From NCBI GenBank assembly GCA_018969975.1, contig JAGWXI010000002.1:1-64000 (forward strand): 64,000 bases of DNA, in the 5' to 3' direction. Positions 2,155-64,000 of the stretch are shown in pieces. The stretch is from Burkholderiales bacterium (GTDB lineage: Bacteria; Pseudomonadota; Gammaproteobacteria; Burkholderiales; Burkholderiaceae_C). Each line of letters begins with the position of its first letter. Positions within the stretch are counted from its first letter, which is position 1. Made by a program: the position numbers and the translations under genes. The notes beneath the pieces are model-generated. The model did not search any database. It was given only the letters and a program-made list of their open reading frames with translations, and was not told the DNA's origin.

Positions 2155-3656
2155 TTTACTCCAAAAAGACTTTGTAAAAATAATAGACGATCACCAAGAG
2201 AATGATTGATAGAATCAACGCTAAAGACATGCATACAGGTTACAAATGACCAAACTAATATAAAAGAATAAATTCTACCTAATTTGGTAGATGATGGACG
2301 AATTCCCATTGAAACTCTTACTTGAGAAATACCCACAAAAGTAGCTAATATTATGCAATAAAAAATATAACTTGCGAATGTACCAAAAGCATTAATAGGT
2401 CCCTGAGTTGCAATCAAGTCAATATCTCTGAAAAAATGCCAAAGACCATTACCAACACCAGCAGCCATAAAGGTTGCAAAAAACATTCGTAGGCGTGGAT
2501 GGTTTCGAAAATACTTAAAAAAAGTTGGTATGAAGAAGAAATCAACCAACAGTTCTTTAAAGTAGTATTGAAAACGATTGAAATACTCCATTAAATTTTG
2601 AGACTCTAATGGACGCCAGCAACCCCGCGGTAGTCGATACCCTGCAAGCCTTGCAATTCCAACAAATATTCCAATCCAAAATGCAATATTCAAAGAGTAA
2701 CTAGCAGTAGATAGCAATATGGCTAACCAACTTGTAAGCAAGGGCAGAGATTTTTCCATCAAAAAAGAATCAATTACTTTAGGTACGATGGGTATACCAA
2801 GGTGTTCGATAAATACCCAATTTAAGAAATAATTAAAGCTAAATAAGATATTTGCCCAAATAAGTAATTTGATAGCTTTAAGTTGAGTAACCGCAAGGTC
2901 AGTAGCGTTTTTTGATAAATGTTTTTGTAAAAATGTAGCGCCCTTGCCAAAAGGTAGATAGGTGGGACTCCAAAATGGGCGCAATGTAGACATTTGTAAC
3001 AGATACGATGGATAATTTTTTCCGCGTTGATCATTAATTGCATAAGGTAAGAACCAAATATATGGAGTGAGAACAAAGATTGCTGACCATAAAAATACTC
3101 TTGATGCTCCATGCAATAAATCGAAACTTCCAAATCCACACAATAATATTTCTAAACTTAAGACTGAAATCATGGGATGTTGAGCAAGAAAAGACTTAGG
3201 AAAGTAACGAACTTGATATAATACCGCGCTAGCTAAAACAAAGAAAATTAAAAGGAATCCTATAGAAAGAACAACTGGCGATATATTAGTTATATTTTCT
3301 TGCTGTAAAACAAGTTCGATATTTTCTAGCGTATCAACATCTCCAAGTCCAATTGCGAAAAGAGCAATTACCCAAGTCGTTACAAATAGTATTAGATCTC
3401 GTACTTTGGGAAAAGTGACTGCAAGCATAGCGCCCAAAATAGCACTGGCAGAATATAAATATCCAAGATGTGGAATAGTAGCCGCCATAGCAACTAATGC
3501 CATTATCAATATTCCAGTAGGTGTCTGCGCCAAGTTAATAAAAAATTTTTGTTCATCAATTGCTAAAAAAATGCGAAGCCACGAGGACTTAATAACTTTT
3601 TTATTGCTTTTCTGGGCCGCCAGTTCTTGTGCTGACAAATCTATATTTTTAGTCAT
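2151..3656 (-). CDS. MBOAT family membrane O-acyltransferase (DltB/AlgI-like)
   Basis: A 501-residue polytopic inner-membrane protein with about ten to twelve hydrophobic segments starting near residue 45. The MBOAT signature lies near residue 410 (GVGNGLWHFF), where the His is the conserved catalytic residue of DltB, AlgI and PatA-type enzymes. Just before it is the typical cytoplasmic loop with aromatic and basic residues (EYFNRFQYYFKELLVDFFF). It would transfer an acyl group from the neighbouring carrier protein across the membrane onto a hydroxyl of an extracytoplasmic acceptor. It overlaps both neighbours by 4 bp. The coding sequence is clearly more AT-rich than the genes to the right. 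No DltD-like or SGNH-hydrolase partner is encoded beside it, although related systems usually have one. Confidence 0.8.
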   Translation of the reverse strand: MTKNIDLSAQELAAQKSNKKVIKSSWLRIFLAIDEQKFFINLAQTPTGILIMALVAMAATIPHLGYLYSASAILGAMLAVTFPKVRDLILFVTTWVIALFAIGLGDVDTLENIELVLQQENITNISPVVLSIGFLLIFFVLASAVLYQVRYFPKSFLAQHPMISVLSLEILLCGFGSFDLLHGASRVFLWSAIFVLTPYIWFLPYAINDQRGKNYPSYLLQMSTLRPFWSPTYLPFGKGATFLQKHLSKNATDLAVTQLKAIKLLIWANILFSFNYFLNWVFIEHLGIPIVPKVIDSFLMEKSLPLLTSWLAILLSTASYSLNIAFWIGIFVGIARLAGYRLPRGCWRPLESQNLMEYFNRFQYYFKELLVDFFFIPTFFKYFRNHPRLRMFFATFMAAGVGNGLWHFFRDIDLIATQGPINAFGTFASYIFYCIILATFVGISQVRVSMGIRPSSTKLGRIYSFILVWSFVTCMHVFSVDSINHSLGDRLLFLQSLFGVN

Positions 3657-5867: not shown

Positions 5868-5976
5868 GTTCGAGCACCTGCGAGGGAGTCGAACTTTTTA
5901 GGATGTCAAAGTTCAGTGTCCTGTCATGGAGTCGAATTTTGGGCTGTTTTTCGGTTCGAGTCCCGGTTGTGGAGTC
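5868..5976 (+). repeat. Imperfect direct repeat, copy A (left of the toxin-antitoxin cassette)
   Basis: About 109 bp that recur at 6708-6813 in the same orientation, with the same internal order of motifs: GTTCG(A/G)GCACC, GGGAGTCGAAC, TCAAAGTT(C/T)AGTGTCC, AGTCGAA, and finally CGGTTCGAGT(C/T)CCGG. The last piece looks like the T-arm of a tRNA gene. By eye the copies are roughly three-quarters identical. Together they bracket the DUF433/DUF5615 pair exactly. Confidence 0.7.
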
Positions 5977-6025: not shown

Positions 6026-6346
6026 CTAATCTATTGAAACAATTTGATATGAATTTAGCATAGCCACATCAATCGCACTCATGATTGCAGCGACGCTTTT
6101 CTGAATTCGGGGCCAGCTGGTGGTGCTAAGAACAACGATCGCAATCTTTCTATTGGATAAGTTCTGCTGATAGGCAAGGTTTGTATCTGTGGTGACAAAA
6201 ACATCAAACCCGTTACCTTCTGCAGCAGCAAGCAATTCACCGTTTTTTAACGTTGACCATCCCAGCTCATAAGCCGTTGACACATAGTGTGATGAGAAGT
6301 GGTTTCTTAATGGAACCGGTGTTCCCTGATCAAACAAGACTTTCAA
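6026..6346 (-). CDS. DUF5615 PIN-like toxin
   Basis: A 106-residue protein of the DUF5615 family, a PIN-fold group related to Mut7-C RNases and generally paired with DUF433 antitoxins. The start MKVLFDQGTP carries the first acidic residue of the family (Asp6), and FVTTDTNLAYQQN carries the second acidic centre. The spacing and length match the family. The gene lies 2 bp downstream of the DUF433 gene on the same strand, which is the canonical order for this toxin-antitoxin type. The predicted activity is ribonuclease; the RNA target is unknown. The pair is enclosed by direct repeats (5868-5976 and 6708-6813), which suggests a mobile cassette. Unlike the HigBA remnants on both sides it shows no inactivating change. 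Confidence 0.8.
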   Translation of the reverse strand: MKVLFDQGTPVPLRNHFSSHYVSTAYELGWSTLKNGELLAAAEGNGFDVFVTTDTNLAYQQNLSNRKIAIVVLSTTSWPRIQKSVAAIMSAIDVAMLNSYQIVSID

Positions 6347-6348
6347 GG

Positions 6349-6576
6349 CTAATGCACAGCCATTGCACTTTTAGCAGCATGTTCTAAAACGCTGCGTGCA
6401 TGAATTAACTCAACACCGGGAAATAGTTCAACAAACTCATTGATGGTGACGCCATCTTCTAAATTTTCAAATAAGGCCACAACTGGAACACGGGTGCCAC
6501 GAAAAACCCAGGCTCCACTAACCAGCTCGGGGTTGAGTTCTACAGAGGGGCAAGTGTTCCAATCAATCATGAGCAA
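6349..6576 (-). CDS. DUF433 antitoxin
   Basis: A 75-residue DUF433 protein (VapB45-like antitoxin) with the standard core: GAWVFRGTRVPV (about 21-32), then a winged-helix-like segment LFENLEDGVTINEFVELFPGV. It should bind and neutralise the DUF5615 toxin encoded 2 bp downstream and probably autoregulates the pair. Two start codons are possible; the annotated one gives MLMIDWN, and the third residue is another Met that most family members would use. No ribosome binding site clearly decides between them. The upstream region is short and leads directly to repeat copy B. Confidence 0.8.
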   Translation of the reverse strand: MLMIDWNTCPSVELNPELVSGAWVFRGTRVPVVALFENLEDGVTINEFVELFPGVELIHARSVLEHAAKSAMAVH

Positions 6577-6707: not shown

Positions 6708-6813
6708 GTTCGGGCACCAGCAAGGGAGTCGAACAAACGGAATTTCAAAGTTTAGTGTCCCTTCATAGAGTCGAACGTTGAGCTTTATCGGTTCGAGTTC
6801 CGGTTGTGTCGTC
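6708..6813 (+). repeat. Imperfect direct repeat, copy B (right of the toxin-antitoxin cassette)
   Basis: Second copy of the ~108-bp element described at 5868-5976, with the same order of motifs and ending in CGGTTCGAGTTCCGG. A short extra GGAGTCGAACTTTGG lies just left of it (about 6684), so the GAGTCGAAC unit occurs several times. No gene is encoded in it; the ORF-track entries here are in random frames. Confidence 0.7.
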
Positions 6814-57843: not shown

Positions 57844-58013
57844 TCAGATACAAATCAAAGCTGACTCTTTCTTTGCCCTGGTCAGGGCCACATAAAGCAG
57901 TTTACGTTTACTGTCGGTTTCGATGGGATCACCCAAATACTCAGATGGGCTGACCACAACGACTTGGTCAAATTCCAAACCCTTGGCTCGATGCATGGAA
58001 GCCAGAGACTTTT
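57844..58013 (-). pseudogene. UvrD/Rep-type helicase C-terminal remnant
   Basis: In one minus-strand frame the sequence reads KSLASMHRAKGLEFDQVVVVSP and then KLLYVALTRAKKESALICI before a stop. These are motifs V and VI of superfamily 1 helicases (S.MHRAKGLEFD...LLYVALTRA+). The rest of the helicase is missing. Its frame enters directly at the end of the SNF2 helicase gene, shifted by one base, so the two were joined by deletion. See the SNF2 entry and findings. Confidence 0.75.
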
Positions 58014-59848
58014 TCAGCTTCTTTGTCGGGGTCATAGACGTTCAAGAAGGCTGAGGGGTCTCCTAGGTTGAGGTTGGCTTGGTTGTCTTTGTTTTGCAAG
58101 ATTTCAAGGATGCGCATGTCGCCCTTGATTTTTTCGTTCTTCGCTTCTGTGTAGAGGTACACAATTTCTGGCTTGTGCTTTTGCCCGTAGCGGTCCACCC
58201 GTCCATTGCGTTGCTGAAACACCATGAGAGACCAAGGCAAGTCGAAGTGCACTAACCGGTGGCAGAAGTAATGCAGGTTCAAGCCTTCGCTGGCCACGTC
58301 TGAACACAGCATGATGCGGATGGGGTCTTCTTGCCGACTAAAGCGATCTACCAAGTTGTTTTGCTCGGTGTCACTCATTTGCCCATCCAAGATTTCAATC
58401 TGTGGGGGCTTGAGCTTCAAGTCTTGCGTCAGCTGCGCTTTGAGCCAGCGCAGGGTTTCGATGCGCTCAGAGAACACCACCAAACGGTCGTGGGCGTTGT
58501 CCATCTGCCAACCAAACTCGGGGCTGCGAAGTTGTTGGACAAAACGTTGGTATTTGCTGAAGCTATTGGCTTTGCTGTCGTTGGTCATCACCTCCAAAGA
58601 CTGCGCCAGGGTTTGCAAGGCTTGCACCTCGGTGGTTTCGTCAGCCGTGACGCTGGTCTTGGTTTGCAAGAGTTGAATGCGCTTGGTGGTGGACTCTAGG
58701 GCCGCAGCGGGACTGGAGAACAAGGCCTTTTGCAAACCGATGCGTTGCAACTCTTGCTGCTTTCCGCCTTTGTGCTGGCCGCCTTGGGTGAAAGGAATAG
58801 CCAGCAAATGGCGGTATGCGGTTTCTTCTTCTGGTGAAGCGGCTTGGCGCAGCAAGGTGGTGACGCGTTCTTTGAAGTCGGCAGATACCTGGTCTTTGAT
58901 GTCTTTTTTGAAGCGGCGAATCACCAAGCCTTTGTCTTTGAAATCCTCAGGGGTGTAGTCGTCAGGGTCTGAAATGGCGGTGGGGTCGAGCAATGCCATG
59001 AGTGACGCAAAGCTGCGGGCCGAGCCGTCGTGCGGTGTGGCCGACAGCAAGATGAGCGTGTCGGAGCGTGTCGCCAGCAACCGTGCCAACTTGGCGCGTT
59101 TGGCCAAACCTTGCTCACCTGAACGCGCCGCTACGTTGTGGCACTCGTCGATGACGATCATGTCCCACCATGCGTTTTCCAAGTAGTTGCGGTATTCCAG
59201 ATTGCTCTTGAGCGTGTCGATGGAAATGATGCTTCGATCGAAGTGATTAAAAGGGTTGTGGTTGGCCGGTATGCGATTGCGCACCCTTGCCAAACCCAAT
59301 GAATCGAGGCGCACCAGCGGAATAGAAAAACGGCTCCACCACTCTTTTTGAAACTGCGTGAGCATGGACTTTTGCGTGACCACCAAGATGCGTTTGCCAC
59401 GACCACGGGCAATGAGCTCTGTGGCCAAGATCCCTGCTTCGAGTGTTTTACCCAAACCCACGGCATCGGCAATCAAAATGCGTGAGCGTGGTTGACGCAA
59501 GGCCTGTAGTGCGGGGTCTAACTGGTAAGGCACCAGGTTCATCACAGCGCGATGGCCCAAATGGATGCGCTCGTCATTAGGCACACTGCGCCGCCGCTGG
59601 CTCTCTAAATAGAGCATGGTGGCGTTGTAAGTGGGGCTGGTGTCGGGTACCAGTTGGGTTTTGGCGGGGTCTAGAACTTCTATGCTGTCTTCGAGCGCCG
59701 TCAAGAACAGCGATGATTGACCGCGCACAAGGTCAGAAATACCGTCACAGGTAAGCAACCAGCCTCCATCAGCCGATGGATCAACCCGCCGAATGAGCCA
59801 TTCTTCGTCTCTGATTTCTGCGCGTGATCCGGGGGCGTAGGGAAGCAT
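57968..59848 (-). CDS. SNF2-family helicase, C-terminally truncated (DrmD-like)
   Basis: A 626-residue DNA translocase fragment. Motifs: Walker A in ILIADAVGLGKTLEAG (about 124-139), the DECH box in MIVIDECHNVA (about 233), LLSATPHDGSARSF (about 272) and motif VI QQRNGRVDRYGQ (about 560). The N-terminus MLPYAPGSRAEIRDEEWLIRRVD is typical of the SNF2 group that includes DrmD of class 1 DISARM defence. Relatives are about 950-1050 residues, so roughly a third is missing. After DPDKEAEKVS the frame runs eleven residues into a UvrD-helicase tail and stops; the fusion is a deletion junction. No methylase or other DISARM genes are in the window. Probably non-functional. Confidence 0.8.
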   Translation of the reverse strand: MLPYAPGSRAEIRDEEWLIRRVDPSADGGWLLTCDGISDLVRGQSSLFLTALEDSIEVLDPAKTQLVPDTSPTYNATMLYLESQRRRSVPNDERIHLGHRAVMNLVPYQLDPALQALRQPRSRILIADAVGLGKTLEAGILATELIARGRGKRILVVTQKSMLTQFQKEWWSRFSIPLVRLDSLGLARVRNRIPANHNPFNHFDRSIISIDTLKSNLEYRNYLENAWWDMIVIDECHNVAARSGEQGLAKRAKLARLLATRSDTLILLSATPHDGSARSFASLMALLDPTAISDPDDYTPEDFKDKGLVIRRFKKDIKDQVSADFKERVTTLLRQAASPEEETAYRHLLAIPFTQGGQHKGGKQQELQRIGLQKALFSSPAAALESTTKRIQLLQTKTSVTADETTEVQALQTLAQSLEVMTNDSKANSFSKYQRFVQQLRSPEFGWQMDNAHDRLVVFSERIETLRWLKAQLTQDLKLKPPQIEILDGQMSDTEQNNLVDRFSRQEDPIRIMLCSDVASEGLNLHYFCHRLVHFDLPWSLMVFQQRNGRVDRYGQKHKPEIVYLYTEAKNEKIKGDMRILEILQNKDNQANLNLGDPSAFLNVYDPDKEAEKVSGFHASSQGFGI

Positions 59849-60134
59849 GTGAATGGGTTAAGTGATTTTTCAAGGATGACTCTATCATGGCGACCCTGAT
59901 GAAATAAAACTTTTTACCTCTTCATTGTCGTCATTTTTTTTGAAATAGTCTTACACACACAGTCAGACAACCGACAGTGGATAACCCGATAACGTAGACG
60001 GGCACCTAGATCGAACTGTGATTTATGGACACAGATAACTTGACCTGCCCCCCAAGCCAGATTGGCTGGTGAAATTGAGAAACGGGGAAAGTGAATGAAG
60101 CCGGAAAAGTCTGGGACTTGTCATTTTTCTTAAA
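59849..60134. other. Non-coding stretch between helicase and AbrB-VapC module
   Basis: It holds a 45-bp sequence (59967-60011) recurring at 61296-61340 and the promoter region of the vapBC-type operon. Minus-strand ORFs at 60006-60377 overlap the antitoxin antisense and look spurious. Confidence 0.4.
59967..60011 (+). repeat. Imperfect direct repeat, copy 1 (module-flanking)
   Basis: ACAACCGACAGTGGATAACC and onward matches 61296-61340 (ACAACCGATAGTTGGTAACC) at about two-thirds of positions over 45 bp. It lies left of the AbrB-VapC genes, the second copy right of DUF3024. Confidence 0.5.
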
Positions 60135-60156
60135 TTCCTTACAATATGGTAAGGAA
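60135..60156. promoter_or_regulatory. Inverted-repeat operator of the AbrB-VapC operon
   Basis: Perfect 8-bp inverted repeat TTCCTTAC-AATATG-GTAAGGAA just upstream of the antitoxin start; the downstream arm borders the ribosome binding site. AbrB-type antitoxins bind such palindromes to autoregulate. Confidence 0.7.
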
Positions 60157-60167
60157 AAGGAGAATTG

Positions 60168-60410
60168 ATGGCTACAGCGACTCTCACCTCTAAAGGGCAG
60201 ATCACGATACCTATTGCTGTTCGACAAGAACTCCAACTTGACACAGGAGACAGGGTAGAGTTTGTGCAAATAGCACCGGGCCGTTTTGAATTGATTGCCA
60301 ATACCAGTCACGTCACCGAACTCAAAGGAATGTTCGGCATTCCAAAAAAAGCCGTTTCTATTGAAACCATGAACCAAGCCATTGCCAAACGCGGGGCATC
60401 TGCCAAATGA
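60168..60410 (+). CDS. vapB: AbrB/MazE-type antitoxin
   Basis: An 80-residue SpoVT-AbrB DNA-binding protein, start ATG 60168 with AAGGAG seven bases ahead. The swapped-hairpin core is ATLTSKGQITIPIAVRQELQLDTGDRVEF (about 3-31). The C-terminal third (SHVTELKGMFGIPKKAVSIETMNQAI) is the extended arm that wraps the toxin. It overlaps the PIN toxin gene by 4 bp, and a palindromic operator lies upstream. It should neutralise VapC and repress its own operon. Confidence 0.88.
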   Translation: MATATLTSKGQITIPIAVRQELQLDTGDRVEFVQIAPGRFELIANTSHVTELKGMFGIPKKAVSIETMNQAIAKRGASAK

Positions 60411-60802
60411 CTGGCTTGGACACCAATGTTCTGGTGCGCTACATCATGCAAGACGATCCCAAGCAGTCGCCTAAGGCCAACCGCCTGATTGAATCACTGG
60501 ACGCCGACAACCCCGGATTCATATCTATCGTCAGCGTGATTGAACTTTTCTGGGTATTGACCAGTTGTTACGAACTCAGTCACGCACAAGTCACTCAAGC
60601 ACTTGAGATGATGTTGCGCACTAAATCATTTGTGATTGAACGTCCCGGGCAAGTAGCCAGAGCGATCAACATGTTCAAAGTCGGTAAGACCGATTTCGCT
60701 GATTGCTTGATTCATTACAGTGCCGTAGATGCGGGTTGCATTGAAACCATGACTTTTGATGTGAGTGCTGCTAAGCACGCTGGCATGACTCTGGTTCAAT
60801 GA
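60407..60802 (+). CDS. vapC: VapC-type PIN-domain ribonuclease toxin
   Basis: A 131-residue PIN toxin. The metal-binding acids are Asp5 in GLDTNVLVRY, Glu46 in SVIELFWVL, and Asp96 and Asp99 in KVGKTDFADCLIH. The fourth-acid region near the C-terminus is MTFDVSAAKHAGM. Length and overlap with the AbrB-type antitoxin are standard for VapBC. The predicted action is Mg-dependent cleavage of a specific RNA, often a tRNA; target unknown. Right of it the sequence turns into an IS3-type scar. Confidence 0.9.
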   Translation: MTGLDTNVLVRYIMQDDPKQSPKANRLIESLDADNPGFISIVSVIELFWVLTSCYELSHAQVTQALEMMLRTKSFVIERPGQVARAINMFKVGKTDFADCLIHYSAVDAGCIETMTFDVSAAKHAGMTLVQ

Positions 60803-60840
60803 GGCTCTAAAAACAAACACGAAAGTGCGTGCTTATGGTG

Positions 60841-60869
60841 CGTGAATCGCCCCGGGTTTCGTGGAGGCC
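60841..60869 (+). repeat. IS3-type terminal sequence scar, copy 2
   Basis: GTGAATCGCCCCG, GG, TTTCGTGGAGGCC; nearly the same as 7371-7399 read on the other strand. It marks a lost IS3-family element just downstream of vapC. Confidence 0.55.
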
Positions 60870-61015
60870 AGTTGGTTTAAGTTGAAGAACGCAATGGCTT
60901 GCCTTGGACAGCGAGTGGCTTAGAGTATTTCAAAATCACAATCTAAAAGCTTGACCCGTTGTAACGCCTAGCCTTGACATCATCATTCACCACAATAAAG
61001 CACCTTGATCAGCAA

Positions 61016-61306
61016 ATGACGTTCAGCATTGAACAACTTGGCGAAATTGACAGCATCATTGGGCAGTGGTGTGTGCTAAAGGTTCCACCGGAGATTAAAA
61101 ATCAAATTGACCATGACTACGAGGTGGATGGCCAAGCGGTGACTTTGCTCGAGGTTCGTCCAATGTGGCGCGGCCCACCCGGTCAATTTACTCGCTCACC
61201 TTTTGCGCGATTTCGCTTCGTCAAATCCTCTGCAATTTGGAAAATTTACTGGCGACGACAAACAGACCACAGTTTTGTTTCAGACGCGCAATTGGACAAC
61301 CGATAG
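61016..61306 (+). CDS. DUF3024 family protein
   Basis: About 96 residues from ATG 61016 (MTFSIEQLGEIDSIIGQW); the track's TTG start adds 14 residues that may or may not be used. The conserved DUF3024 core is DYEVDGQAVTLLEVRPMWRGPPGQFTRSPFARFRFVKSSAIWKIYW. The family is small, cytoplasmic and of unknown role, often beside mobile elements or toxin-antitoxin loci, as here. It is intact. The 45-bp sequence starting at its 3' end recurs left of the vapBC module. Confidence 0.78.
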   Translation: MTFSIEQLGEIDSIIGQWCVLKVPPEIKNQIDHDYEVDGQAVTLLEVRPMWRGPPGQFTRSPFARFRFVKSSAIWKIYWRRQTDHSFVSDAQLDNR

Positions 61307-61340
61307 TTGGTAACCCGAAGACTTGGCGGGACACTGGTCT
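61296..61340 (+). repeat. Imperfect direct repeat, copy 2 (module-flanking)
   Basis: Partner of 59967-60011, beginning in the last codons of the DUF3024 gene. It directly adjoins the next repeat family (61341-61403). Confidence 0.5.
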
Positions 61341-61403
61341 AAATTCACCAGGATGATTTGAAAAGTACTCCAGCATAATTTTTCGCAGCCCAATTTTTTT
61401 GAT
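61341..61403 (+). repeat. Imperfect direct repeat, copy 1 (around VbhA-Fic)
   Basis: A 63-bp stretch matching 63014-63076 at about three-quarters of positions, with a perfect 20-bp core CATAATTTTTCGCAGCCCAA. It sits left of the Fic module. Confidence 0.7.
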
Positions 61404-61479
61404 CTGTAGACCCTATTTGGGCTGCATCGATCGTGGCTTAGTACCCACAAAACCGCACTTCTTGGCAGGTGAAAACCCA

Positions 61480-61508
61480 GTGACAAAGTGGCCCTGGCAA
61501 GCTAAAAT
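61480..61508 (+). promoter_or_regulatory. Candidate promoter of the VbhA-Fic operon
   Basis: GTGACA, 17 bp, TAAAAT, about 27 bp before the antitoxin start. Confidence 0.4.
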
Positions 61509-61534
61509 ATTGTGAAAAATACACGGAACTTTCA

Positions 61535-61729
61535 ATGCCAAATCCAGTTCTAACTCAGGCTGCACGCCAAAAGAACGTTGCCAATATGCTGGCCACGCTA
61601 CGCATTGAAAAGCTCAGCCCCAGCGAAAGTCTCAAGCCCTCGCTGCAGGCCTATGTTGATGGGCATAAAACAACCACCGATTTGCTTAACGAAGTCAAAG
61701 CCAAATATGTCGCGCTACGACGCGGATGA
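61535..61729 (+). CDS. VbhA-family antitoxin of a Fic module
   Basis: A 64-residue protein of the VbhA antitoxin type: an N-terminal inhibitory helix NVANMLATLRIEKLSPSESL (about 14-33) followed by a second helix QAYVDGHKTTTDLLNEVKAKY. In VbhA the inhibition motif (S/T)xxxE(G/N) places a Glu in the Fic active site; here it reads TLRIEK (Thr21, Glu25), so the final Gly/Asn is Lys. The gene overlaps the Fic gene by 23 bp, as expected for this toxin-antitoxin type. Confidence 0.82.
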   Translation: MPNPVLTQAARQKNVANMLATLRIEKLSPSESLKPSLQAYVDGHKTTTDLLNEVKAKYVALRRG

Positions 61730-62291
61730 CGTCTATTGCATCCCTGGAACTGCTGTTCTCAAGAACAAAGCTGGAATAACGGATCAAAACCAGCTTGATG
61801 AATACGAAGGTGACTTTACAGCCATTCGCCTTCTCGAACTCACGCAAAGCCCAGTCGAAGGTTCTTTCGATCTAGCGCATCTTTGCAAAATTCATCAGTA
61901 CCTATTCCAAGACGTTTACGAGTGGGCTGGCGAAGTCAGAAGCGTAGACATCATCAGGGGTGATAGTCGTTTTTGTAACGTTCGCCATATCCAGTCCTAT
62001 TCAAATACCGTTTTTAGTGCCCTAGCAGCTGAGAAATATTTGGTCAACTTAGATCCCAAAGTTTTTGCAAACCGTTTAGCTCACTATTTGTCAGAGATCA
62101 ATGCTATCCACCCGTTTCGCGAAGGTAATGGCCGAGTACAAAGACTCTTTATTTCGCAATTAGCAGACCACGCCGGCTATTCCTTGGATTACTCTGCTTT
62201 GGATCAAGCTGAGCTTTACCCCGTGATGCAGGAATCATTTCTTGGGGACATACAGCCGCTAGCAGGCTTGATTTTGAAAATCATCGACTGA
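61707..62291 (+). CDS. Fic-domain adenylyltransferase (VbhT-like toxin)
   Basis: A 194-residue class I Fic protein using ATG 61707 (MSRYDADDVYCIPG); the track's earlier start lies out of frame inside the antitoxin. The catalytic motif HPFREGNGRVQR (135-146) matches HPFx(D/E)GNGRxxR completely, so AMP transfer should be possible. The N-terminal part includes TAVLKNKAGITDQNQLDEYE, typical of the VbhT and Bartonella BepA-type group, but without a BID domain or type IV secretion signal. It probably modifies a cellular target, in known cases topoisomerases, when VbhA is lost. Confidence 0.88.
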   Translation: MSRYDADDVYCIPGTAVLKNKAGITDQNQLDEYEGDFTAIRLLELTQSPVEGSFDLAHLCKIHQYLFQDVYEWAGEVRSVDIIRGDSRFCNVRHIQSYSNTVFSALAAEKYLVNLDPKVFANRLAHYLSEINAIHPFREGNGRVQRLFISQLADHAGYSLDYSALDQAELYPVMQESFLGDIQPLAGLILKIID

Positions 62292-62581
62292 GCGCTGAAA
62301 CCAAGCTGCATTCGGAAAGCAGGTTGCATCACCCGTAAAAAACCCACTGTTTTAAACGCCCTACAGCGCGTCGTTCGCATTCTCCGAATGCTTTGGGTGC
62401 TGAGCGCCCTGCTAAACGCTTGTAGGGCTGATTAGAAGCATGCACTTGCTGTGCACTCAATGAGTGCAAGGTCTTCGCGGAAATATATGAAAACACAACT
62501 TTCTCTGGATCTCAAGTTTTGAGCGTTGAAATCATTGGCGAAAAATTCCGCGCAAAAGTAATCCACAGAGAGTCTAATTCG
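62292..62581. other. Gene-free stretch with a structured inverted repeat
   Basis: No gene. It includes the inverted-repeat element at 62356-62429 described separately; the rest shows no clear coding or RNA feature. Confidence 0.4.
62356..62429. repeat. Nested inverted repeat (attC/REP-like)
   Basis: Outer arms ACGCCCTACAGCG (62356-62368) and CGCTTGTAGGGCT (62417-62429) pair imperfectly; inside is a perfect GCATTC-TCC-GAATGC hairpin (62377-62391). A related half-site AAAACGCTTGCAGGGCTTG occurs near 63170. The folded shape could be an integron-like attC, a REP element or an IS end; I cannot decide. Confidence 0.5.
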
Positions 62582-62866
62582 TCATGCTCTAACTCGGTAA
62601 TGGGAACTACAGTGCTGCGCCAACAGACGGCAGTGCGTTGACGAAAGGGAATTGCTCCCAGCGGGTTTTGCGCGGCGGATTTCGTGTTGCCAAGACACTT
62701 CCTTGAATCCTGTCATCCAAAAGCAAGCACCCTTCTCAGCCAAGTGCTTGGTGCCATCAGTCAGCAGATCCCTGCGACTGATTTTGTAATAGGCTGTTGT
62801 GCCTGTGAATCGAGACATTGTGTAAATGTCTAATCCTAACTTTTGAAGTTCTCTGTGTGTTTTCAT
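62582..62866 (-). pseudogene. DUF6876-like remnant
   Basis: A 94-residue minus-strand frame whose middle (MSRFTGTTAYYKISRRDLLTDGTKHLAEKGACFWM, about residues 17-51) matches the core of the DUF6876 family as I remember it (F.GT..YY.....LLTDG.KYLAE.A..YWL). After that the family's next segment is not found in the same frame, and the tail (REIRR to end) looks random, so a frameshift or truncation is likely. Function of the family unknown. Confidence 0.5.
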
Positions 62867-63013
62867 CTCTGTGTTCGTTTTGTTTCAGACCCGAAGATGG
62901 ATAGTCTTTAAGGAATGTTGTGGAAGTCTCCTCTCTACAAAATCGAGGTTTTGCCTAAAACCTCTTATGAATAGCATTTCATTTTTTATATTCATGTAAG
63001 TACCCATAGGCTA

Positions 63014-63076
63014 GAAATCACCAGGGTGAAATGCTAAGTACATCACCATAATTTTTCGCAGCCCAAATTTTTATGA
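63014..63076 (+). repeat. Imperfect direct repeat, copy 2 (around VbhA-Fic)
   Basis: Partner of 61341-61403, same orientation, sharing the CATAATTTTTCGCAGCCCAA core. The two copies enclose VbhA, Fic, the inverted repeat and the DUF6876 remnant. Confidence 0.7.
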
Positions 63077-63310
63077 GTAAAGGAACCCTTCTTGCAACGC
63101 ATGCGGGCATCAAATAAGCCATACAGCCACTTCATTTTTTGAAGCGCTGGGCTGAGTAGTTGGTGCAGGTTTAAAACGCTTGCAGGGCTTGTGTGCAAAT
63201 CGCTGCGTACTTCGCATTGAACACCCCCAATTGACATTGATTTCAGATATAAAAATCTATGAAAAGACTTAGAAAAATCTATGAAAAGTAGTGTACGAGC
63301 CCTACACTAC

Positions 63311-63345
63311 AAAAAAACTAAAGTAAAGCGCCTAAAAAAGCGCTT
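63311..63345 (-). terminator. Rho-independent terminator after tRNA-Val
   Basis: On the minus strand AAGCGC-TTTTTTAG-GCGCTT followed by TACTTTAGTTTTTTT. It is placed 28 bp after the tRNA 3' end. Confidence 0.6.
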
Positions 63346-63372
63346 AAGTCATTGAGAATATTGAGGAATTTT

Positions 63373-63447
63373 TGGTGCGTGGTGAGGGTTTCGAACCCCC
63401 GACCCCCGCCGTGTGAAGGCGATGCTCTACCACTGAGCTAACCACGC
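63373..63447 (-). tRNA. tRNA-Val (anticodon CAC)
   Basis: Complete cloverleaf: acceptor GCGTGGT/ACCACGC, D-stem GCTC/GAGC, anticodon stem TCGCC/GGCGG with loop TTCACAC (anticodon CAC, reading GUG), T-arm with TTCGAAA, discriminator A, and an encoded CCA end. It follows dnaQ on the same strand and is followed by a terminator. It borders the right-hand accessory zone and could be an integration site. Confidence 0.95.
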
Positions 63448-63531: not shown

Positions 63532-64000
63532 TTAAGCAGAGGATGGCTGACGCCAAAGCGTTTTGCCGCCACTGGCTTTGTCAATCTCATCCAGCAATTT
63601 CTCGTGTTCTGCCATTTCTTCAGCTGTTGCGCGAATCACGGGCAGTTTGAAAGCGCTGTAATCCATGCGCACGGGGCTTGAACCATCGTGGCTGATTTCA
63701 TCTCCATCTATCAACAGCGCATCTTGGCCACGGGTCAAATGGATATACACATCAGCCAATAATTCTGCATCCAACAAGCCGCCGTGAAATTTACGTGCTG
63801 CATTGCTGACGCCCAATCTTTCGCACAAAGCATCCAATGAATTGCGTTTGCCGGGGTACAACTCTTTGGCCATTGCCAGGGTATCCAGCACATGTTTCAC
63901 ATGCTGTTTGAATGCTGGCTGATCTATACGCGTCAACTCAGCATTCAAAAAACCGACATCAAATGGGGCGTTGTGGATGATGATTTCTGCATCTTTGACA
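63532..64000 (-). CDS. dnaQ: DNA polymerase III epsilon subunit (3'-5' exonuclease), 5' part missing
   Basis: The last 156 codons of DnaQ; the gene begins beyond the window edge. The visible part starts in VKDAEIIIHNAPFDVGFLNAEL, the ExoII block with its catalytic Asp, and includes LDALCERLGV, then RKFHGGLLDAELLADVYIHLT, the ExoIII region with catalytic His and Asp. It proofreads DNA synthesis as part of the core polymerase. The track's Met at 63948 is internal. The C-terminal tail (ATAEEMAEHEKLLDEIDKASGGKTLW) is the segment that binds the alpha subunit. Confidence 0.93.
   Translation of the reverse strand, partial: VKDAEIIIHNAPFDVGFLNAELTRIDQPAFKQHVKHVLDTLAMAKELYPGKRNSLDALCERLGVSNAARKFHGGLLDAELLADVYIHLTRGQDALLIDGDEISHDGSSPVRMDYSAFKLPVIRATAEEMAEHEKLLDEIDKASGGKTLWRQPSSA

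Follow-up and report, generated by a model that had tools for sequence, protein, structure and literature searches.

Towards the right-hand end of the 64,000-nucleotide stretch of Burkholderiales DNA analysed here (the window), two families of imperfect direct repeats, R45 and R63, lie around toxin-antitoxin (TA) genes. These repeats are probably parts of the control and attachment regions of integrative elements that, in this genus, build up at the tRNA-Val(CAC)-dnaQ locus, and the window probably holds a collapsed island. This reading draws on what was observed: the homologies and the order in which they occur, the truncated sequences, and conserved arms next to tRNA halves. In kind the locus is ordinary, a decayed tRNA island.

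The first-pass annotation had reported a 63-bp repeat at 61341 and 63014 and a 45-bp repeat at 59967 and 61296. Both pairs exist, but their copies are less alike than it stated. The 63-bp copies are identical at 48 of 63 positions without gaps and share a perfect 20-mer, CATAATTTTTCGCAGCCCAA; a search of the window's own assembly found these two copies only (E 2.7e-10). Each 45-bp copy matches the genus consensus (E 2.8e-7 at 59967 and 5.5e-10 at 61296), with 23/27 and 20/27 core positions matching where 0.75 Mb of shuffled DNA gave 19/27 at most, but the two agree with each other at only 30 of 45 positions.

The leftmost R45 copy (59966..60009, + strand) is solitary, with diverged flanks and a near-palindromic 27-bp core at 59980-60006. 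D3 and R45 together occupy 61265..61340 (+), where an int190-type control region starts, 80-85% identical to the intergenic region found in relatives upstream of the recombinase gene int190. R63 of type a (61341..61428, +) comes next and comprises the 63-bp repeat and a short hairpin. It is separated by VbhA-Fic from H, a long imperfect inverted repeat (62352..62436, +), after which comes a remnant of the int190 leader (62442..62606, +) with the DnaA-box-like sequence TAATCCACA. Homology of this leader stops inside R45', and int190 itself is lost. A second D3 copy (62877..62901, +, an extra repeated block corresponding to 61272-61296) lies upstream of the second 63-bp repeat, R63 of type b (63005..63073, +), which is followed by a second H copy (63111..63192, +). 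A plasmid collection searched with R63 gave no match, and the tRNA was the sole Rfam match in the window. A canonical integron attC at R45 or R63 was rejected, the boxes being sought by eye only.

The gene content previously assigned to this region was confirmed with Pfam. An AbrB/MazE-type (VapB-like) antitoxin (60168..60410, +, PF04014) and a PIN-domain (VapC-like) toxin (60407..60802, +, PF01850) are followed by a dispersed-repeat piece at 60843..60885, formerly described as an IS scar, of which 95-100% identical copies occur in the same genome and in many genus genomes. Next comes a 3'-truncated DUF3024 gene (61019..61264, +, PF11225 profile positions 7-81 of 112), whose ORF extends into the repeat unit to 61306. 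Homology to a paralogue in the same genome (G000:C142; G-numbers denote genus genomes, G000 being the window's own assembly, and L-numbers denote loci) stops at 61263, and the paralogue goes on for about 42 residues. Since DUF3024 is cut exactly where the repeat unit starts, at D3, the repeat brackets no intact DUF3024 gene. The VbhA antitoxin (61535..61729, +, PF18495) and a Fic/VbhT-like AMP transferase (61716..62291, +, PF02661; NF045983 and PRK10347) are not bracketed by two complete repeat units; they lie within one unit, between R63 and H. The N-terminal remnant of a DUF6876 gene (62582..62866, − strand, PF21781 profile positions 7-44 of 117) follows; a literature search on DUF6876 found nothing.

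On the right are tandem TATAAAAATCTATGAAAAG motifs (D6; 63248..63295, +) of a type common beside tRNA-Val(CAC), then an intact tRNA-Val(CAC) (63373..63447, −), whose 3' half (63373-63418) serves relatives as att core, and a dnaQ-like exonuclease gene flanking the hot spot (63532..63999, −, PF00929). The tandem motifs occur near tRNA-Val also at sites without R63 (L032, L033). At 57968-59848, adjoining the island remnant, an SNF2-type helicase resembles DrmD of DISARM, but it scores under that family's cut-off and is shorter than the DrmD model (626 versus 1021 residues).

When 150 relatives were searched with 61250-63372, pieces of this region recurred in an order that differs from that of the window but is constant. 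In same-genus relatives (Limnohabitans and kin), the counterparts of 61265-61424, of 62352-62606 and of the DUF6876 remnant are joined in a single conserved unit, arranged as DUF6876 (antisense), D3, R45, R63, H, DnaA-box-like sequences, R45' and int190. The last encodes a 190-aa tyrosine recombinase made up solely of the catalytic domain: in the protein of a relative, the window having none, PF00589 spans residues 6-179 of 190 with no N-terminal domain, which is FimB/XerC-like, and the XerA and XerC models match below cut-off. R45 is a near-palindrome, GGTAACCCG-ATAACTTGGA-CGGGTACC; R45 and R45' stand at about −514 and −95 from int190, and a third R45-like copy is found near a DUF6641 gene. 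On the right, conservation stops at approximately the int190 stop codon. The arms of H, tested for RNA structure, were invariant and gave no covariation.

The int190 unit is multi-copy and mobile. It was found at 50 loci in GTDB genomes, Limnohabitans strains Rim11, Rim28, Bal53, 2KL-17 and 2KL-51 included, and 20 of the 84 genomes of the genus carry it, at up to six copies among the matches listed. Insertion of int190 elements into a tRNA was rejected, no tRNA being nearby and the right border not being directly repeated within 8 kb. An empty site, sought among 60 genomes via the flank of the int190 copy in G057, was not found. A protein of about 525 aa (cluster 2; L043 398-1900 and homologues) is conserved in int190 elements and belongs to no Pfam or PHROG family; possibly it is a replication protein, and the DUF6641 gene adjoins.

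R63 and H have a second context. In G006 and G038 they lie, in the same order, between the gene of a 455-aa integrase (int455) and tRNA-Val(CAC)-dnaQ. A truncated int455 precedes R63-H and tRNA-Val in G047, remains of int455 precede R63 in G033, and integrase-like C-termini, identified by eye, do so in G014 and G080; Pfam found nothing in the short G014 fragment. Homology between the int190-type and int455-type contexts starts in the right arm of R45. In the window, R63-H at 63005-63192 aligns with the int455-linked copies, the integrase-side arm beside the tRNA thus being present, and both kinds of R63 are retained, the int190-type (a) and the int455/tRNA-type (b). Neither int190 nor a close int455 relative was found in G000, an absence that is not certain because the assembly is 89% complete and in 167 contigs. 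Relatives have a tyrosine integrase beside the att site and neither the window nor its assembly has one, hence the window is a remnant.

When tRNA-Val and its flank were used as the query, solo 46-nt 3' halves of this tRNA, which stop at the anticodon, came to light in eight genomes (two each in G006 and G067, and others in G008, G035, G044, G047, G052 and G055). After most of them comes a conserved arm, arm2 (actatggcagtttgcc...aaagtagtatagttgtagtatag); a 190-bp profile of half plus arm2 found eight copies at scores of at least 83 bits, seven of which are its seeds. Such halves with their arm mark the far ends of tRNA-Val islands, and from this we deduced an attP of the form int455 - R63 - H - tRNA core - arm2. 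One contig of G006 carries int190 (166.6 kb) and, about 19 kb away, int455-R63-H-tRNA (184.5-186.1 kb), with two tRNA halves farther out. G047 has half plus arm2 at one end, together with int190, and the truncated int455 with R63-H-tRNA at the other, some 30-31 kb off. Neither an excised circle nor an exact empty site turned up. Large proteins (~1000 aa, 653 aa) of the G006 island (L037 8125-11899, L110 1548-8391) resemble, by eye only, a defence cluster, be it type III restriction-modification or another kind.

The window has no solo half and no arm2. Its only tRNA-Val is the intact one, so the 3' part of the tRNA does not recur as a direct repeat at the two ends, and the far island end is therefore missing there. 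VapBC homologues elsewhere touch the halves: in G035 a gap of 26 bp separates a VapC-like homologue from one of the solo halves, and another homologue, in G008, is truncated by such a half. These contacts support VapBC as hot-spot cargo.

An island history would account for the window as follows. Where islands are intact, int455 stops immediately ahead of R63-H, on the integrase side of the 46-nt tRNA-Val core, and the opposite end has the same tRNA half and then the conserved arm. The related R45-R63-H unit stands upstream of the second, catalytic-domain-only recombinase, int190. R63-H may bind the integrase or its accessory factors. An internal deletion would then have collapsed the interior and removed both recombinases, so that R63a (61341) and R63b (63014) now enclose no more than VbhA-Fic and fragments. 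The R45 copy at 59966 may be a further solitary remnant, and both VbhA-Fic and VapBC would have arrived as island cargo. Two junctions support the collapse: DUF3024 is cut at D3, and the leader (lead2) is cut inside R45'.

R63-H is also found away from tRNA genes, upstream of int190, and may therefore be a regulatory or replication region rather than an attachment arm. In a rival proposal, to which we give a small but real chance, R45-R63-H serves plasmid-like int190 elements as replication origin or operator and plays no part as a recombination site. In its favour are the GTTATCCACA DnaA boxes, the fixed offsets of R45 and R45' from int190, and the palindromic R45 copies that precede DUF6876, int190 and the DUF6641 gene. 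However, the R63-H copies at int455/tRNA-Val are without DnaA boxes or R45' and still keep R63 and H in order. It is unlikely, too, that R45-R63-H is an integron-like capture platform of int190, in which VbhA-Fic and similar cargo would be site-specifically inserted between R63 and H and the R45 palindromes serve as exchange points; combined with the TA-rich R58 cassettes described below, such a platform would shuffle TA modules without IntI.

The first-pass annotation had read R45 and R63 as the bounds of mobile two-gene modules, TA pairs moving between imperfect direct repeats. VapBC-DUF3024 and VbhA-Fic are indeed flanked by repeats here, and VbhA-Fic follows R63 at an identical 5' junction in the window, G067 and G020. 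But a common junction is a single event, to be counted once, and the repeat unit truncates DUF3024. Moreover, neither R45 nor R63 is near the homologues of VapBC at seven loci (L139-L145) or of VbhA-Fic at four (L012, L014, L017, L056), and R63 elsewhere is found with recombinases (int190, int455 and another two integrase-like genes) instead of TA genes. The rule of modules strung like beads between repeats therefore fails for R45/R63, and we regard the cassette interpretation as very improbable. The VapBC and VbhA-Fic modules belong to the tRNA-Val accretion hot spot, whose true boundaries are the solo tRNA 3' halves. At L056 (G021:C73), VbhA-Fic sits between identical 56-bp copies of the 3' part of a tRNA(CAT), at 2389-2444 and 3395-3450; the copies, about 1 kb apart, are accompanied by an 85% identical arm and enclose no integrase. 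Finally, that the repeats are due to chance or are simple dispersed intergenic sequences, as the 67% identity of the 45-bp pair might suggest, can practically be dismissed, given matches to the genus consensus with E values between 1e-7 and 1e-19, a conserved gene context, and a synteny that refutes it.

The beads rule fared better for the repeats at 5868 and 6708, which had been grouped with R45/R63. They are real (about 79% identity over about 100 bp, E 3.1e-17), but form an unrelated family, R58. Copies A (5868..5966, +) and B (6708..6804, +) enclose a DUF433 plus DUF5615-like TA module (6029..6576, −). With a sequence model, R58, about 100-130 bp long, was found in 31 copies in 18 of the 84 genomes. 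Among 68 ORFs within 700 bp of R58 were HTH_3 antitoxin-type (8), DUF433 (4), AbiEii (3), YdaS (3) and HigB (2) families, the HTH and YdaS counts overlapping; cupins, DUF2237 and SnoaL were other neighbours. The 25 families listed for 61 control ORFs, which were taken from two genomes and unmatched for island context, included none of the TA families. R58 copies enclose one and the same DUF433/DUF5615-like module in the window, in G000:C150 (11943-12791) and in G070:C26, and an XRE module in G011 (C82) and G067 (C10); homology of modules common to several loci stops at or within R58. This supports an enrichment of short TA modules next to R58, where the beads idea holds. Rfam gave only chance matches on the R58 region.

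R58 is reminiscent of integrons and CALIN in that TA and other small modules lie between ~100-bp repeats and shared modules end at the repeats. It differs by the absence of canonical RYYYAAC...GTTRRRY attC boxes (0 of 11 copies), and IntI (TIGR02249) gave no match at E<=1e-30 in the 84 genomes, the control genomes being silent as well. The R45/R63 locus, for its part, is comparable to tRNA-targeting integrative elements and genomic islands, with (in relatives) an integrase beside the tRNA and the tRNA 3' half as a direct repeat, tandem accretion, and accessory and TA cargo. It differs from them in that the window copy is without integrase and far att end, the crossover region is in the anticodon half, and a second, catalytic-domain-only recombinase also has the R63-H region. 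A similar description fits the tycheposons, elements with a tyrosine recombinase that are associated with tRNAs and have been reported in freshwater Methylophilaceae (PMC10872708): a tRNA-bordered cargo island and a tyrosine recombinase in streamlined aquatic bacteria. There, the fGI-3 case involves tRNA-Met and xerD (PMC10872708), whereas here the tRNA is tRNA-Val.

R58, with TA modules of several families beside the repeat and shared modules ending at it, is a more novel lead than the collapsed island and merits its own study. As for the island, what looked like a cassette array can be read as the history of a hot spot for integration at tRNA-Val in freshwater bacteria that are common. It yields a testable attP and a single-domain recombinase, present in multiple copies, whose upstream region is conserved, and it shows that repeats flanking TA genes need not be part of TA modules.
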